From positions 372,001 through 436,000 of the forward strand of contig JAFRUE010000007.1 of NCBI GenBank assembly GCA_017441925.1: a stretch of DNA of 64,000 bases. Direction: 5' to 3'. Below are positions 37,932 to 55,997 of the stretch, one piece after another (within the stretch, counting starts at the first letter, position 1; each line of letters starts with the position of its first letter). Below the pieces are notes generated by a model, which was given only the letters and a program-made list of their open reading frames with translations, was not told where the DNA came from and searched no databases. Made by a program: the position numbers and the translations under genes. This stretch comes from Bacillota bacterium (GTDB lineage: Bacteria; Bacillota; Clostridia; Lachnospirales; Bianqueaceae).

Positions 37932-38012
37932 TATACTCAACCTCTGTCGGCGGTATATTTAGCGTTTTTCTTGATTTACACTGCCGCTTCAAGATCAATC
38001 AACTTGAGTATA
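37932..38012. repeat. Inverted repeat TATACTCAA/TTGAGTATA upstream of the NifX-FKBP gene
   Basis: TATACTCAA (37932-37940) and its exact complement TTGAGTATA (38004-38012) flank 63 bp in the gap before the NifX-FKBP start. A partial GGCGG/CTGCC pair lies inside. It could be an operator pair or a long leader stem. Confidence 0.5.
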
Positions 38013-41422: not shown

Positions 41423-43129
41423 TTATCCAAAGAATCTACGTAAATATCCCTGCAATTTAGGATCACAAGCATATATGAAAGCTCCGCGAATACCCCTTGT
41501 CAGTAATGTACAGTAGATATTTAATATATATGTTCGGAGCGCTTCTATGTCACCACTAACTGCTCTTCCGAGACTATCTTTATAGTTATCTTTTATGATC
41601 TCTATGCGTCGTGTAATAGGATCAAATACAACTTCCGGTCCGAAGATTACGCCAACATAGTTCAAATCATATCCCTGAACAGTATGTATACATCCGACCT
41701 CATATGGCAATCTGTCTGAATTGATCCAATCGGTGTCACTGCGGTTCCAAATATACCCTTTCCCTATAGTGATATCTCTTTTGTCTGTATCTTTAGGAGC
41801 ATTTTTCGTAATCCATGGCCAGGCATATCCAGCTACAGTACAAGATAAACCATATTCTTTGTCCAGTCTGTTGATCTCATCTACCAGAGAATCAACATTA
41901 TCAAACATCTCAATTCGGTAATTCTCAAACGGGCCATGCGGGGACACTTCCTCCCCATTCAGAACCTTTTTAACGTATTGAATATAATCATCTCCGCCAA
42001 GGCATCTCAACTGAGACTGTAATTTCAGACGAATCATACTGCCATGCTCAAATGATCCCATAAAAGAGCTTGCAGGGATATCAGATGGTTTTACAGACTG
42101 TGCCTGATCATAAAACAATACCTGCACTTTGCTGCTTTTCAATATCCAGTCAAGTTCAGTTGCGTCTTTAGGAAGTCCCAGCAGCTTATTATTCTTGTCA
42201 TAAGCAGGATACTGTGATAATGCTTTCCGTTGATGCAATCGGTGTGCCTCATCAACAACTAACAGATCAAAAGGTCCTTTCTTTACGATTTCATTTGGGC
42301 TAAGAATCATGTTATCAGACAGCCCATCTATTGTTCTGAAAACTTTTTTGATTGTCTGACGCAGCGATTGCATAGGAACAACAAAACCGATTTTCAGATT
42401 ATGAAAATTAGACATAACCTCTTGTGCTATGCCTGCATTAAGGAGATCCCCCTCGTTCTCTGTTCTTGTCACATTGTTATTTGCAATATCCGTTAATAGT
42501 TTGATTAGAAAAACAGCCAGAATTGTCTTGCCGGTTCCTGCGCCACCCTCTACAATTATTGAATGGTCAATGTTATATTTCAGATAGCCGTTCAGATAGT
42601 ATAGTATCTGATTAAGCACCTCTGTTTGATCATCATTCAATGCTTTGTATGGCGAATACTTAAAGAGGTCAGAATTCTGTATATCAGCGATTCCGCTCTG
42701 TACTAGTCCAAGATCTCTGAGCTTCTCCCATACTTTCTGAAACTGATCTTCGTATTCTTTACGACCATAGTAATCGAAATCATTCAAACCATTATTTCCG
42801 TTCTGCAATTTATACTTACCGTCTGCAGAAATGTACTTGATAAGGAATGACTCCAGATCCAGTATAACAGACTTGTTGAACGATTCGTCTGTCATAATAT
42901 GAATCGTACTTAGCCGCTGTCTTTCTGAAATCTGCCAATGTTGTGCAGCTCGCTTCCCTGCATTCAGGGTCTCTCCAATATAGCCTTCTCGCAAAGTCTC
43001 GTTATGAATAAAATAAACTACAGGCCAGTTTGAACCGAATTCGCGCTGACCTTTCCGCCACCCTTCAATCTTTGTCTGACTATTTGAATTGAAAGGAAAC
43101 TCTCGTACCTGCAGATCAAAGTTTATCAT
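41423..43129 (-). CDS. GIY-YIG nuclease fused to a DUF2075 superfamily 1 helicase-like ATPase
   Basis: The protein (568 residues from ATG 43129, with AGGAG 8 nt upstream) has an N-terminal GIY-YIG domain. Its residues VYFIHNE, GYIGETLNAGKRAAQH, DLESFLI (catalytic Glu) and LQNGNNG are all kept. A DUF2075 ATPase follows: Walker A VEGGAGTGKTI, Walker B LLVVDEAHRL, VLFYDQAQS, CIHTVQGYDLNYVGVI and YCTLLTRGIRGAFIYACD. Such proteins recur in defence loci as nuclease-helicases. It overlaps the MazG-like gene by 14 bp, and both are AT-richer than the genes around, suggesting transfer. Confidence 0.88.
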   Translation of the reverse strand: MINFDLQVREFPFNSNSQTKIEGWRKGQREFGSNWPVVYFIHNETLREGYIGETLNAGKRAAQHWQISERQRLSTIHIMTDESFNKSVILDLESFLIKYISADGKYKLQNGNNGLNDFDYYGRKEYEDQFQKVWEKLRDLGLVQSGIADIQNSDLFKYSPYKALNDDQTEVLNQILYYLNGYLKYNIDHSIIVEGGAGTGKTILAVFLIKLLTDIANNNVTRTENEGDLLNAGIAQEVMSNFHNLKIGFVVPMQSLRQTIKKVFRTIDGLSDNMILSPNEIVKKGPFDLLVVDEAHRLHQRKALSQYPAYDKNNKLLGLPKDATELDWILKSSKVQVLFYDQAQSVKPSDIPASSFMGSFEHGSMIRLKLQSQLRCLGGDDYIQYVKKVLNGEEVSPHGPFENYRIEMFDNVDSLVDEINRLDKEYGLSCTVAGYAWPWITKNAPKDTDKRDITIGKGYIWNRSDTDWINSDRLPYEVGCIHTVQGYDLNYVGVIFGPEVVFDPITRRIEIIKDNYKDSLGRAVSGDIEALRTYILNIYCTLLTRGIRGAFIYACDPKLQGYLRRFFG

Positions 43130-51013: not shown

Positions 51014-51017
51014 AAAG

Positions 51018-51053
51018 TTCCTCCACAGATCTTTGTTCCTCCACAGATCTTTG
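51018..51053. repeat. 18-bp tandem duplication of a ribosome binding site
   Basis: TTCCTCCACAGATCTTTG occurs twice in a row (51018-51035, 51036-51053), with a partial third copy (TTCTCCA). On the minus strand each unit contains TGGAGGAAC, so the azoreductase-like gene has two identical ribosome binding sites 18 nt apart, only the near one properly spaced. Confidence 0.85.
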
Positions 51054-51181: not shown

Positions 51182-51461
51182 GAAGATCTTCTTGTGCTCA
51201 TTACGGCGGTAAAAAATCGATAAACGCTGTTTTTTACCGCCAGTTTTGGGCATTAGATACCTTGAAATCAGTCAAGAACAGCTGGCTTGCGACCAATTCA
51301 GGGCTTCCGTGCTATTTAATTCATTAAATTCACTGGAAATCCTATTTTTTAGCTGTATTTTCAAGGCTTCAAGGTCTATTTTCACGGCAAAAGATTGAAC
51401 CCTGGCGGTAAAATTACGAAAAATAGACGCTTTTACCGCCAAACCCCGGCCCGAAAGGGAC
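51182..51461 (+). repeat. Hairpin-bounded intergenic repeat, copy 1
   Basis: Hairpin A is a perfect 12-bp stem GGCGGTAAAAAA/TTTTTTACCGCC (51205-51216 with 51230-51241). Hairpin B is a 10-bp stem GGCGGTAAAA/TTTTACCGCC (51404-51413 with 51431-51440). Between them is a core with GAAATCAGTCAAGAACAGCT. The unit ends in GGCCCGAAAGGGAC, which contains a CCC-GAAA-GGG mini-hairpin and touches the stop codon of the next gene. It lines up without gaps with copy 2 (constant offset 1359). No open frame is convincing. Confidence 0.88.
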
Positions 51462-52270
51462 TATTTACAATAAGCCAGGATTTTCTTCTCCACAATACGC
51501 ATGTCCAGCGGCATATCGGACGTCTCTGATGATATGATCAGTTTCTGCCCCAGCATATACCCGTTCATCTGGTAAGTCCGGATTTTCCACAAATTCCGGG
51601 CAAGATAGTTCGGATTATCAAGCAGACCCAAATGCTCCCAGTACAGTTCAGTTCTGTCCCTCACTCGCAGAATCGTAAAATCCGGGTAGACTGCAGTCAT
51701 TGAATAATCTTCCGGATCTTCCAGATTCAGAGGGCATTCATATCGATACGGAACCTCATATTTGAGGAGCATATTCGCAATGATCACCTCGGACTTGGAT
51801 CGGACGCGCTCTCCGCGATCCGTGTAAAAAACTTCAGGACCAAACGGATAATCCGATTGTGGAAACGTCTGTTCAAGCCACTTTCGCACGAATTCGTCAT
51901 CCGGTTCCGTGACCGGACGGACTAAACCGCGCTTAACAGAATTAAGCCTGTTATATAAATACTCATGTGCGGATTTGTGCTCGTAAAAAAGCTTAAGCCG
52001 GCGGATCAGTTTGCTCTCATGTTCAGCCGCTTTCAGGATCGAACGGTCATATTCCGACTGAGCAATCCTGCGGATCTCGGGGCTGTCCTTCGGCAGATAT
52101 TTCTTGCCGCCGTGCGGAATCGCCTGATAGAACTGCAGTTCATCCCTGTGAGGACTGATATAAAGCCTGCCTGCATCCTCGCCCAGCGAAGCCTGTGTTG
52201 TCCGGATCAGCTGTGAAAGCTCCGTCTCCCTTGCCTCAACCATTTCAATCAACTCTTTCAAATAATGCAA
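51461..52270 (-). CDS. Uncharacterised protein with a probable PD-(D/E)XK nuclease domain
   Basis: The 269-residue protein has a charged helical N-terminal half and a C-terminal region fitting a PD-(D/E)XK fold: RSKSEVIIANMLLKYEVPYR (Glu on the first helix), VYPDFTILRVRDR (Asp) and LYWEHLGLLDNPNY (Glu/His). Catalysis is inferred from this spacing only. The start is TTG at 52270 because GGGAGG lies 7 nt upstream; no ATG is well placed. It has its own promoter. The stop codon abuts repeat copy 1. Confidence 0.8.
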   Translation of the reverse strand: MHYLKELIEMVEARETELSQLIRTTQASLGEDAGRLYISPHRDELQFYQAIPHGGKKYLPKDSPEIRRIAQSEYDRSILKAAEHESKLIRRLKLFYEHKSAHEYLYNRLNSVKRGLVRPVTEPDDEFVRKWLEQTFPQSDYPFGPEVFYTDRGERVRSKSEVIIANMLLKYEVPYRYECPLNLEDPEDYSMTAVYPDFTILRVRDRTELYWEHLGLLDNPNYLARNLWKIRTYQMNGYMLGQKLIISSETSDMPLDMRIVEKKILAYCK

Positions 52271-52330
52271 TAATTATCCTCCCGCTGCAAGAATCTAATT
52301 GTATCCAGGTTGCCGGATTCAATATATTCT

Positions 52331-52359
52331 ATTATAGGGAGCAAAGAGTTGGAATGCAA
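52331..52359 (-). promoter_or_regulatory. Promoter of the gene at 52270
   Basis: TTGCAT (52354-52359) and TATAAT (52331-52336) are 17 nt apart on the minus strand. Confidence 0.82.
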
Positions 52360-52540
52360 GGGAAGTACAAAGTGTACCATGCGAACAATCTGTAACCAGA
52401 GGAATTTGTGCTGGCTGCAGCAGTTCAGCTGACTACTTGGACTGGCGCCGGCAGAAAAGCTGTTCTGAAATTTGCACGTTAGTCAAGTGTTATATTCGTT
52501 GAAGACAAGAAATGCGTATCTTGCGTTCGTTTTTTCCTCA
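52360..52540. other. Intergenic stretch without recognised features
   Basis: This lies between the promoter of the gene at 52270 and repeat copy 2. Only short, unconvincing open frames and the palindrome-like GCAGCAGTTCAGCTG are seen. Confidence 0.4.
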
Positions 52541-52820
52541 GAAGATCGTCTTGTGCTCATTGCGGCGGTAAAAAATCGATAAACGCTGTTTTTTACCGCC
52601 AGTTTTGAGCATTAGTTACCTTGAAATCAGTCAAGAACAGCTGGCTTGCAGCCAATCCAGAGTAACCCGGCTATTTAATTCATTTAATTCATCGGCAACC
52701 CTGTCTTTTAGATGTTCTTTCAAGACTTCAAAGCCTATTATTATGAAAAGGAACTGAACTGTGGCGGTAAAATAACGAAAAATAGGCGCTTTTACCGCCA
52801 GATCCTGGCCCGAAAGAGAC
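52541..52820 (+). repeat. Hairpin-bounded intergenic repeat, copy 2
   Basis: Hairpin A (52564-52575 with 52589-52600, including the loop TCGATAAACGCTG) is identical to copy 1. Hairpin B is at 52763-52772 with 52790-52799. The end is GGCCCGAAAGAGAC (52807-52820). The 236-bp distance between the outer hairpin ends is the same as in copy 1. The core carries many base changes but no length change. Confidence 0.88.
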
Positions 52821-52886
52821 AGTTCTAGCTATTGTATGGGCTATCGATCATCCGGTTCCATGGAACAGCGGGATGCATCTGTTCTA

Positions 52887-54641
52887 TTACCGCACTATCT
52901 CCAGATAGACCGTGCGCCCCGGCCCGACGGGAATGTCAAACGCGTATTCCGGAAGCGCCGCACGGGTGCGCGCCGCGTCGCCGGCTTTCATCGGGCCGCG
53001 CAGGAGGACAGGCGCTGTATACTCTCTGCCGGACTCGAGATCCCGCACCAGGCGGCATTCGCCGCGGACGACCAGGCGCAGATCCGTCGTCATTGGGCGG
53101 AAAGAATGAACCGTGCAGACGTGATTGTCATACAGCATCAGGCTGGCTTTGGGCTCGCCGTACAGATAAGCCTCCAGTCCATCGGACAGAACCGCATTGA
53201 TCACCTGGATCACGTCCGCCGGCAGCTTATACAAGTCGGCGAAATTCTCCGGGACATTCAGAATGAAGAGTCTGCCTTTGCCGTACATATCCTCGGTCAG
53301 AAGCGGGAAATTGTCCTCGCCGGCCAGGACAAGTACATCTGCCCAGGTCGCGTTCGTCATATAATCAAGCGCCTCGAAAAGGATCTTTTCCTTGCCGCTT
53401 GCGTATCTGCCACCGGCATAATCCAGCCGGTCGATCATATAATCGCTGCCGAGAATGTGCCTGTGCGTCAGTCTCACGCTGGTCAGCTCTTTGATGCCGC
53501 GCTCATATGTCTCGTGCACAAAACCGACCGTCACGACAGCTTTACCGCCCTTGCGGATATAAGCCTCCAGTTTGTCGACGATATCCGGATTACAAGCCGT
53601 ACGGCTGGTCAGAAGGAGCGTCGGCGCGTCTTCCGGGAAATCGGGAGTCGGCTCGATCGCCGCGCCGCACATGCCCAGATAACTGATCAGCTGGTCTTCA
53701 CCTTTCGCGTCATACGGCTCCCAGACCGCGCAGCCGACATGCCTGCCGGCACGGTCGAGGAAACGGTCCACACGGCGCAGCACCGGATCCATGGCGTTCA
53801 GCGCCGGGCTGTCCAGCAGGCTCGGGAAATTGAAAAGCGTCAGTTCTTTGGCTCCGCCGAGGAAGCTGAATTCGGCCTGTTCGAGCCAGCGGCTGATGTT
53901 GTCGGAAGATCCGCCAAGATCGATCCAGCCGCCGCCGTTCCTGCCGGGCGCAGTATTCTCCATCAGACGCATCAGCGAATAGGATTCGTAGCGCTGCAGA
54001 TGCTGCTGGCTGTAATTCGGCTCACGGGTCTCCGTCCCTGTATAGACCATGTCAAAGATATTCCGCTGGGTCATCGGGACGTAACCGCTCTCGTGATAGC
54101 TTTCGTACCAGTTCGGATATTTGATGATGAAATTCATCTTGGGGTTGATACGCTTGGCCTCAGTTACAATCTCTCTGGAGAACTCTGTCATCTGCTCCTG
54201 GCGGAAATCTTTCCATGAGCGTTTGCCTTTCGCCGCGATACACATCTCGCAGCGGCAGGATGTGAAGAAGAAATCGTCCAGAATGATCTCGTCAAAGACC
54301 GAGGCGGCTTCGCGGACGATGCGGAGATAGGTCTCCCTATGGCACGGATCCGTATAGCAGAAAGTATCGAAAATCGCGGGTTTCTGGATGTCGTCGACAA
54401 GGACCGTTGACGTGATGCCGCCGGACACGGTCAGACCGTAGCTTTCAAGCAGGGCCTTGATTTCTCGCAGGCGTTCGACAGGAACATCAGTTGTCCCGCG
54501 GTGATTCTCCAGATAGACTTTCTTAAGGGGAATGTTGGCCAGATAATACTCTACGCCCCGGCGGATCTCATCATTCGTCGCGCGGCCGGCGTAATAGGCG
54601 TACATATAGCTGGCAATACTGAAATTGCGATACGCTTCCAT
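52887..54641 (-). CDS. Uncharacterised glycosidase-like protein (TIM barrel, amidotransferase-like and beta domains)
   Basis: The 584-residue protein has an N-terminal barrel-like half with FDEIILDDFFFTSCRCEMCI and MNFIIKYPNWYESYHESGYV, patterned like GH42-type and related hypothetical glycosidases. A middle region (PTLLLTSRTACNPDIVDKLE, KAVVTVGFVHETYERG) resembles the glutamine-amidotransferase-like domain of beta-galactosidases. The C-terminal beta sandwich ends in GPGRTVYLEIVR. No signal peptide is seen. GGAGGTCAATGAG precedes the ATG. Substrate and activity are not known. Confidence 0.72.
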   Translation of the reverse strand: MEAYRNFSIASYMYAYYAGRATNDEIRRGVEYYLANIPLKKVYLENHRGTTDVPVERLREIKALLESYGLTVSGGITSTVLVDDIQKPAIFDTFCYTDPCHRETYLRIVREAASVFDEIILDDFFFTSCRCEMCIAAKGKRSWKDFRQEQMTEFSREIVTEAKRINPKMNFIIKYPNWYESYHESGYVPMTQRNIFDMVYTGTETREPNYSQQHLQRYESYSLMRLMENTAPGRNGGGWIDLGGSSDNISRWLEQAEFSFLGGAKELTLFNFPSLLDSPALNAMDPVLRRVDRFLDRAGRHVGCAVWEPYDAKGEDQLISYLGMCGAAIEPTPDFPEDAPTLLLTSRTACNPDIVDKLEAYIRKGGKAVVTVGFVHETYERGIKELTSVRLTHRHILGSDYMIDRLDYAGGRYASGKEKILFEALDYMTNATWADVLVLAGEDNFPLLTEDMYGKGRLFILNVPENFADLYKLPADVIQVINAVLSDGLEAYLYGEPKASLMLYDNHVCTVHSFRPMTTDLRLVVRGECRLVRDLESGREYTAPVLLRGPMKAGDAARTRAALPEYAFDIPVGPGRTVYLEIVR

Positions 54642-54658
54642 CTCATTGACCTCCGTAT

Positions 54659-55240
54659 TTATGTGTTTTGTGTTCCTGCTTGTTCGACAAAATGGACCGG
54701 ATATTTCTGCTTGTATTTATCATAGACCCTTGTCTCGTTCCCGTCAAGATTCAGCTGATACATGCGGAAAATGACCGGGAAATCTTTTGGGTGCCACTGC
54801 TCCATATATGAATAGCAGTACTTCATGCCGAGCCGCTGCATCACCCGGCCGCTCGGCTCATTGTTCCGGTCGTGCGTGGCCGTGATGTACGGGATTCCTT
54901 CAGCCCGCAGATGCCCGATGACAGCTCTCGCCGCTTCCGTCACGATCCCCTGGTGCCAGAGCTCCTTGCGCAATGCATAGCCAAAATCATGGTTCTCACC
55001 TTCGTCCATGTCGACGTAGCCGACGGGTCGGTTATCCGTCTTCAGACAGATTGCATACCAATGCCGGGCTGTCAGATTCTTCTCGTAAAATGCCGCTGCC
55101 TCTTCGCGCGATTTGACAGGAAACCACGGCAGGTAGCGGTTTACTTCTTCATCAGCCAGCAATGTGTAGATATCATCAAGGTCGTCAGTGGTAAAACTCC
55201 GCAGGATCAGACGGTCGGTTATGATCCGTTTATTGTCCAT
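54659..55240 (-). CDS. GNAT acetyltransferase, RimJ/RimL-like
   Basis: The 193-residue protein begins ITDRLILRSFTTDDLDDIYT and has DFGYALRKELWHQGIVTEAA and NEPSGRVMQRLGMKYC, the standard order of RimJ/RimL-type acetyltransferases. ATG at 55240 has GAGG about 11 nt upstream. It sits 17 bp before the glycosidase-like gene and probably shares its transcript. Confidence 0.88.
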   Translation of the reverse strand: MDNKRIITDRLILRSFTTDDLDDIYTLLADEEVNRYLPWFPVKSREEAAAFYEKNLTARHWYAICLKTDNRPVGYVDMDEGENHDFGYALRKELWHQGIVTEAARAVIGHLRAEGIPYITATHDRNNEPSGRVMQRLGMKYCYSYMEQWHPKDFPVIFRMYQLNLDGNETRVYDKYKQKYPVHFVEQAGTQNT

Positions 55241-55333
55241 GTTGCGATTATCCTCAATCACAGGTCGATTAATGTTATAACAAATGCCGCAGGTGCTCAT
55301 TTATATTGCTTGAGAATGCCTTTCCTTGGTTGC

Positions 55334-55568
55334 GGCGGTAAAAATACAAAAAATGTCTGTTTTTACCGCCGGTTTTAGAGGCAGATGGCTGAAACAATCA
55401 TAAAAACCTCTGTTTTTTCAGCCGAGTCCGGCTCTACGAATAAATAGAGCCGCTAAATCACTTATTTCATGGCTTCACAAGCTATTTTCAAGCTGTACAA
55501 ACGAAAACTCGGCGGTAAAATAGAGAAAAATAGGCGCTTTTACCGCCGCGGCCCGGGCCGAAAGGGAC
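55334..55568 (+). repeat. Hairpin-bounded intergenic repeat, copy 3 (divergent)
   Basis: Hairpin A is an 11-bp stem GGCGGTAAAAA/TTTTTACCGCC (55334-55344 with 55360-55370). Hairpin B is GGCGGTAAAA/TTTTACCGCC (55511-55520 with 55538-55547). The end GGGCCGAAAGGGAC (55555-55568) is 21 nt from hairpin B, as in copy 1. The core is unlike copies 1 and 2 in sequence and 22 bp shorter. So the hairpins and the end are conserved, not the core. Confidence 0.85.
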
Positions 55569-55580
55569 AGTTCCCTTACG

Positions 55581-55643
55581 GGGGACACTTCTCTGGGCAG
55601 AAATTGGATCCCGTTCGCACGAATCCGGGGAGAAATTGTCCCC
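55581..55643. repeat. Inverted repeat GGGGACA...TGTCCCC next to the truncated YczE-like gene
   Basis: GGGGACACTTCTC (55581-55593) is nearly complementary to GAGAAATTGTCCCC (55630-55643). The second arm ends one base before the stop codon of the truncated membrane protein gene. It joins directly to repeat copy 3 through GGGACAGTTCCC. Confidence 0.7.
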
Positions 55644-55997
55644 TCACTTAACAACCAGCTCCCGCGAGACCTCGACTACGTCGCGGTGACGGACAGCACG
55701 CGGCTCAAACCGGATCAGGCTGTACACGAGCCGCATGACATTACCGGTCAAAAGGGCATCAATAATGGTCCCGTAGCCGATCCGCTCGCACAGCAGCAGA
55801 TCGATAATCAGGATCACTACAGACATGGCTGTCATTGAAAGCCCGTAGTTAAGCGGCGTGTGCTTTGCGATGCCCATACCGAGACAGTCCCACGGTGCCA
55901 ATCCGATATTCGCATAGATCGTCAGATGTACGCCGAATGCAAAAACCGCGAGCCCAGCCGCGATCTGCAGCCACTGCAATAAGATCTTTTTCCTCAT
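55644..55997 (-). CDS. Truncated YczE/YitT-like membrane protein
   Basis: The 117-residue product has the first half of a YczE-type membrane protein: AAGLAVFAFGVHLTIYANIG, LAPWDCLGMGIAKHTPLNYG and IGYGTIIDALLTGNVM. Full members have about 200 residues with a second similar half. Here the frame ends as RHRDVVEVSRELVVK, with no membrane segment, just where the inverted repeat at 55581-55643 begins. No clear ribosome binding site is seen at ATG 55997; a longer frame starts inside the aldolase gene. It is probably a broken gene. Confidence 0.68.
   Translation of the reverse strand: MRKKILLQWLQIAAGLAVFAFGVHLTIYANIGLAPWDCLGMGIAKHTPLNYGLSMTAMSVVILIIDLLLCERIGYGTIIDALLTGNVMRLVYSLIRFEPRAVRHRDVVEVSRELVVK

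Follow-up and report, generated by a model that had tools for sequence, protein, structure and literature searches.

The window analysed here is a stretch of 64,000 nucleotides from a Bacillota genome (G000, our study genome), in which three gaps between genes hold copies of one palindromic element. A sequence-only reading had described hairpins A and B in three copies together with a GGCCCGAAAGGGAC tail, and all of these features were found again. The copies and one further palindrome lie as follows:

51191..51461, + strand: copy 1 (C4a), with left edge CTTGTGCTCATTAC, palindrome A, phased core, palindrome B and GGCCCGAAAGGGAC tail
51205..51241, + strand: palindrome A of copy 1
51404..51440, + strand: palindrome B of copy 1, 199 bp (19 turns) from A
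52550..52826, + strand: copy 2 (C4b), equal in length to copy 1
52564..52600, + strand: palindrome A of copy 2
52763..52799, + strand: palindrome B of copy 2, 199 bp from A
55320..55573, + strand: copy 3 (C4c), with a third palindrome mid-copy
55334..55370, + strand: palindrome A of copy 3
55387..55423, + strand: middle palindrome of copy 3, with a GGCTGAAAC / GTTTTTTCAGCC type stem, 53 bp (5 turns) from A
55511..55547, + strand: palindrome B of copy 3, 177 bp (17 turns) from A
37949..37985, - strand: isolated palindrome, a weak match (26.1 bits) to the generic 37-nt model (R3) and only a putative member of the repeat

Copies 1 and 2 align without gaps at the constant offset of 1359 that had been reported, with 83% identity over 300 nt; from A to B they differ by 37 substitutions and 0 indels in 236 bp. 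Copy 3 does keep both hairpins, to which we add the third palindrome of the same type in its core. If up to one mismatch is allowed, the window contains 18 occurrences of the motif GGCGGTAAAA versus 2.6 expected, and none of 100 shuffles contained as many. Upstream of an azoreductase-like gene the 18-mer GTTCCTCCACAGATCTTT stands in exact tandem duplicate (window 51017-51052). Right after copy 3 there is an imperfect inverted pair, GGGGACACTTCTC ... GAGAAATTGTCCCC (window 55581-55644), which ends at the stop of the gene that follows.

The count of three is correct for the window and had to be corrected for the genome, where we found 16 copies of this intergenic repeat of ~240 bp (2.72 Mb in 16 contigs). 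A covariance model of the left end and hairpin A returned exactly 16, and pattern and blastn searches agree. Most copies outside the window lie many kb apart in unrelated contexts. All 16 are intergenic, judged by the surrounding ORFs; by our reading of the likely genes, 7 stand between convergent, 8 between co-directional and 1 between divergent neighbours, and at least one gene 3' end adjoins 15 of them. When the 16 copies are aligned, the unit runs from a left edge through palindrome A, a variable middle and palindrome B to a C-rich stretch. The left edge is sharp, CTTGTG(T/C)TGGTTGC with a constant CTTGTG, and hairpin A follows 14 nt further on; palindrome B spans 37 bp with the centre AAAAATAGGCGC. 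Behind the C-rich stretch the tail is GGGACAGTTC in some copies and its reverse complement AASTGTCCC in others, most copies having either, and the GGCCCGAAAGGGAC tail of the window copies is therefore not constant across the family. A related motif, GGGACASTTC, flanks hairpin B on its right side in many copies and may point either way; it also stands in tandem beside one array of the same-genus genome G002. It occurs in the window at 41941, 48010, 48830, 51078, 55564 and 55582, and genome-wide 151 times in G000 and 158 times in G002 (14 and 5 for a reversed-pattern control), with 15 occurrences in the same-genus G001 and 7-10 in G003, G006 and G017.

The repeat is built as a string of 37-bp palindromes, each consisting of a 10-bp stem and a 17-bp centre with an A-run. 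Palindromes A and B are common to all copies. Between them most copies carry one or two extra 37-bp palindromes with other stems (GGCTGA, GGCAGA, GGCAGT), which vary in number, position and orientation, some being inverted. Among 32 palindromes, 90% paired, covariation was seen at stem pairs 4, 6 and 8, with two-sided changes in 25 cells versus 9.2 +/- 2.4 in shuffles, in a test biased towards structure by the analyst's picking of palindromes for pairing. This agrees with the earlier suggestion that selection acts on structure rather than on sequence. A blind search of 464 kb returned 145 palindromes, where Markov sequence gave 83, and 34 close pairs versus 4, ratios which do not represent the genome average, the sample having been partly selected for known copies. 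In one copy (C15b, L249:6144-6348) the 13-14-nt centres of the two middle palindromes are complementary (AAACCGCTGATTTC, GAAATCAGCGGTTT), and mutual pairing may be possible.

The distances between palindromes follow the DNA helix. Measured from palindrome A, the offsets are 53, 63, 105, 126, 137, 146-147, 168, 177-179, 189-190 and 199 bp, all at most 1.5 bp off a multiple of 10.5 and corresponding to ~5 to 19 turns of B-DNA. A pooled period scan of these offsets peaks at 10.50 (R 0.948); the chance probability of such phasing is ~1e-5 for 12 distinct offsets and 0.002 for the four A-to-B classes alone. In the copies C2a, C2b, C2c and C13a the A-to-B distance is 226 bp throughout despite 53-71% ungapped identity. 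Because diverged copies have identical lengths, and because copies 1 and 2 accumulated their 37 substitutions without an indel, we conclude that length is held while the sequence drifts and that length changes come in whole turns.

The same periodicity runs through the core. AAA/TTT triplets have a mean power of 19.0 at 10.5 bp versus 1.7 in shuffles, with a sharp peak, and GC content alternates in antiphase to the A-tracts (power 22.8, peak 10.5; genome median 0.85, 99.9th percentile 15.1); in copy 1 the two powers are 22.2 and 22.4. Outside all palindromes the core keeps the A-tract phase of the palindromes (-3.02 and -3.26 bp), with a mean cosine of 0.66 versus 0.06 +/- 0.07, a value reached by 0/500 shuffles. 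When 464 kb of G000 were scanned blindly, the top 10.5-bp places were the repeat copies, followed by other palindrome arrays. Lower in the same scan came the stretch just upstream of a putative dnaA gene (C9, L245:13321-13560), with DnaA-box-like TGTGGATA motifs. Phased A/T runs are expected upstream of dnaA, and this stretch is a natural positive control for the scan. Phasing of both paired and unpaired parts, together with quantised length, is a signature of double-stranded DNA on a curved path and points to selection on double-stranded DNA shape. The core is therefore not free to drift, as had been thought, and is constrained by helical phase.

Similar arrays with different sequences occur in G000 itself and in related genomes. 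In a second phased family of G000 the arrays have AGCAGAAAA..TTTTCTGCT stems, spaced by 52 and 62 bp, and an A-tract period of 10.3-10.4 (C4:91498-91750, L204; C16:23225-23480, L208; C5:85317-85530, L205). A third, strongly phased family has GGCTGAA..TTCAGCC stems, in which a GTTCAGTAC..GTACTGAAC hairpin is often nested (C1:74351-74614 and C1:43271-43577, L202 and L203; C5, L250:771-1010 and L252:14051-14290). The arrays of G002 consist of 37-nt palindromes with different stems, spaced by 52, 63 and 73 bp; several of those rich in GGCAGTGTA stems have weak A-tract power, and A-tract phasing is thus not universal among arrays. In unrelated arrays of G006 (L223, L224, L225) and G017 (L226-L229) the pitch is off 10.5 bp: palindromes are spaced by 64.5 and ~61.5 bp, a sixth of which is 10.75 and 10.25, and the A-tract periods of the same arrays are 10.7 and 10.1-10.3. 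Since spacing matches the arrays' own A-tract period, the principle holds in unrelated sequences. In 200 kb of G006 three phased places exceeded the cut-off used for G000; in sampled stretches of 343 kb from G001 and 200 kb from G003 none did. The repeat is also absent from the sampled parts of G001, and it is therefore not essential across the genus.

In a single wedge model, using Bolshoy dinucleotide values, the predicted net bend is 169-341 degrees over 230 bp, ~250 per copy; across the genome the median is 57 and the 99th percentile 162. From the phasing and this modelled curvature we propose, with a probability of roughly one half, that the copies are architectural sites of curved, wrappable DNA which organise supercoiling and have spread in the manner of BIMEs. 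About 240 bp of phased A-tracts and GC blocks around 37-bp dyads would make the helix axis curve one way. We infer that such a curved copy could occupy the tip of a plectoneme, or could be wrapped by a protein that reads phased bends (gyrase, HU or another nucleoid protein), and that supercoiling would thereby be pinned or buffered next to gene ends. The dyads might offer symmetric contacts or extrude as hairpins, and the copies would have spread as a repeat family. Plectonemes are known to be pinned by intrinsic curvature, for which a curved piece of 75 bp suffices (PMC6301789). Bending does not need palindromes, yet the stems covary, and the dyads must therefore also be read or maintained by something: either their symmetry is important for something other than bending, or the palindromes are kept perfect by template switching. 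The pitch of the arrays differs between genomes (10.2, 10.5 and 10.7), which is not predicted by planar curvature alone.

Several other explanations have to be weighed against an architectural site. The sequence-only reading had suggested a non-autonomous mobile element; the dispersal over 16 intergenic sites agrees with this, the helical phasing had been missed, and neither a transposase with matching ends nor a clean empty site was found. A mobile origin of the copies is possible. The fuller version, a REP/REPIN-like or IS200/IS605-derived element whose single-stranded hairpins are recognised by a tyrosine (Y1/HUH) transposase and whose phasing is incidental, seems unlikely to us: it accounts for dispersed, lineage-specific copies with a sharp left edge, covarying stems and hairpins of the same orientation at both ends, but leaves the 10.5-bp core phasing and the quantised lengths unexplained. 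Palindrome-ended elements derived from IS200/IS605 have subterminal hairpins of the same orientation at both ends, as the repeat does; unlike them, the repeat has extra middle hairpins, helical phasing and no transposase with matching ends. Y1_Tnp gave one match in G000 (C10:7122) and none in G002, and the flanks of the G000 gene lack the palindromes of the repeat and form different ends. An IS200/IS605 end element was rejected, the sole Y1 locus having other ends and no tnpA copy sharing ends with the repeat. A RAYT gene was neither found in G000 (98% complete; a missed gene is possible) nor seen flanked by the repeat. The gene next to copy 2 has an orthologue in G002, with 81.6% nt identity. 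Behind that orthologue comes a plain terminator without the element, but the neighbour there is a different one, so the place is not a clean empty site. No close copies were present in plasmids and phages (blastn), in viral contigs (exact loop-and-stem pattern) or in 57 relatives. The stem pattern gave 66 scattered matches in ~85,000 genomes, weak with the hairpin B model, and the one inspected (L096) contained single unrelated hairpins. Integron-type attC cassettes, suggested by three copies alternating with genes, were discarded: most other copies lie far apart in unrelated surroundings, and the attC core motif was not seen.

It is doubtful, too, whether the copies are operator arrays for one specific DNA-binding protein (for partition, domain organisation or regulation), phased for cooperative binding of dimers to one face, with curvature as a by-product. 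The 37-bp dyads, in which the half-site spacing is fixed and the A-run centre conserved, their whole-turn phase and the 16 chromosomal clusters would suit such a protein; it would not be expected to tolerate half-sites that differ within one copy (GGCGGT, GGCTGA, GGCAGA), and the A-tracts between sites are phased too. A structured RNA family, the other suggestion of the earlier reading, is unlikely, and as a multi-hairpin non-coding RNA or 3' UTR element we give it very little weight. Stable hairpins, compensatory changes in the stems and adjoining gene 3' ends speak for RNA, but middle hairpins differ among copies in number and orientation, and the A-tract and GC periodicity of the unpaired core is a feature of double-stranded DNA that RNA does not explain. 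The proposed Rfam check gave no match other than one tRNA, and on these grounds, no Rfam match and a phased unpaired core, structured RNA was set aside as a candidate; intrinsic terminators were set aside for the lack of a T-run 3' of the palindromes. Template switching that corrects palindromes is an established mutational process. It would be available to a neutral repeat, in which an ancestral short tandem unit spread by segmental duplication, template-switch repair keeps the palindromes perfect and multiples of 10.5 merely reflect ancestral units of 52 and 63 bp. The spacings 52 and 63 do recur. We nevertheless hold neutrality to be very improbable: length is kept at 29-47% substitution, the phase of the non-palindromic core survives the shuffling control, and unrelated sequences of other genomes likewise couple spacing with A-tract period.

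Compared with known systems, an architectural repeat of this kind comes close to the REP/BIME sequences of E. coli (palindromic units, REPINs), which are likewise intergenic and dispersed palindromes of 35-40 bp with variable stems, clustered in both orientations near gene 3' ends. It differs from them in having only 16 copies in the family and in the 10.5-bp phasing of its palindrome spacing and core, and the sucB-sucC BIME of E. coli, the only one checked, is without A-tract phasing. REP sequences bear an unpaired GTAG or CGTC tag at one palindrome end (PMC3733652); no such tag was seen at either foot of palindromes A and B in our alignments. The repeat is somewhat BIME-like in its working, but two defining REP features, the tag and RAYT, were not found. 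Gyrase prefers phased 10-bp variation in GC content and is enriched in BIME-2 palindromes (PMC6379681). By analogy the repeat may resemble strong gyrase sites (Mu SGS type; extended E. coli motif), which have phased ~10-bp GC variation in their wrapped stretch, a likeness judged on the GC signature alone. Those sites, however, have a 36-bp centre and two 47-bp arms, whereas in the repeat the phase is continuous over ~240 bp and the dyads are repeated. A-tract clusters are intergenic as well, with A-tracts phased with the helix (PMC3940949), and the A-tracts of the repeat are phased at ~10.5 bp above background; the clusters, however, are scattered unrelated sequences, whereas here the predicted curvature is carried by a homologous palindromic family with quantised lengths. 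In the part of the literature that our search reached we found no published account of dispersed palindromic repeats whose dimensions come in whole helical turns.

In conclusion, where hairpins are conserved and the core between them drifts, the element need not be an RNA; the core is here held by helical phase, not by sequence. More speculatively, and with clearly less confidence than for the single copies, it might be that this lineage keeps repeat families selected for wrapping: superhelical templates of ~240 bp, with palindromes, cores and indels quantised to the helical turn, at which a dedicated protein would find nucleosome-like docking sites or sites for pinning plectonemes. Such families would have emerged more than once in related genomes, each time with different sequences. 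If the architectural reading is true, nucleoid research would gain short, natural, repeated sites in which curvature is encoded by sequence alone, with the diverged copies as replicates. Pinning of supercoils in vivo by curved repeats, or their recruitment of gyrase or nucleoid proteins, would then become directly testable.
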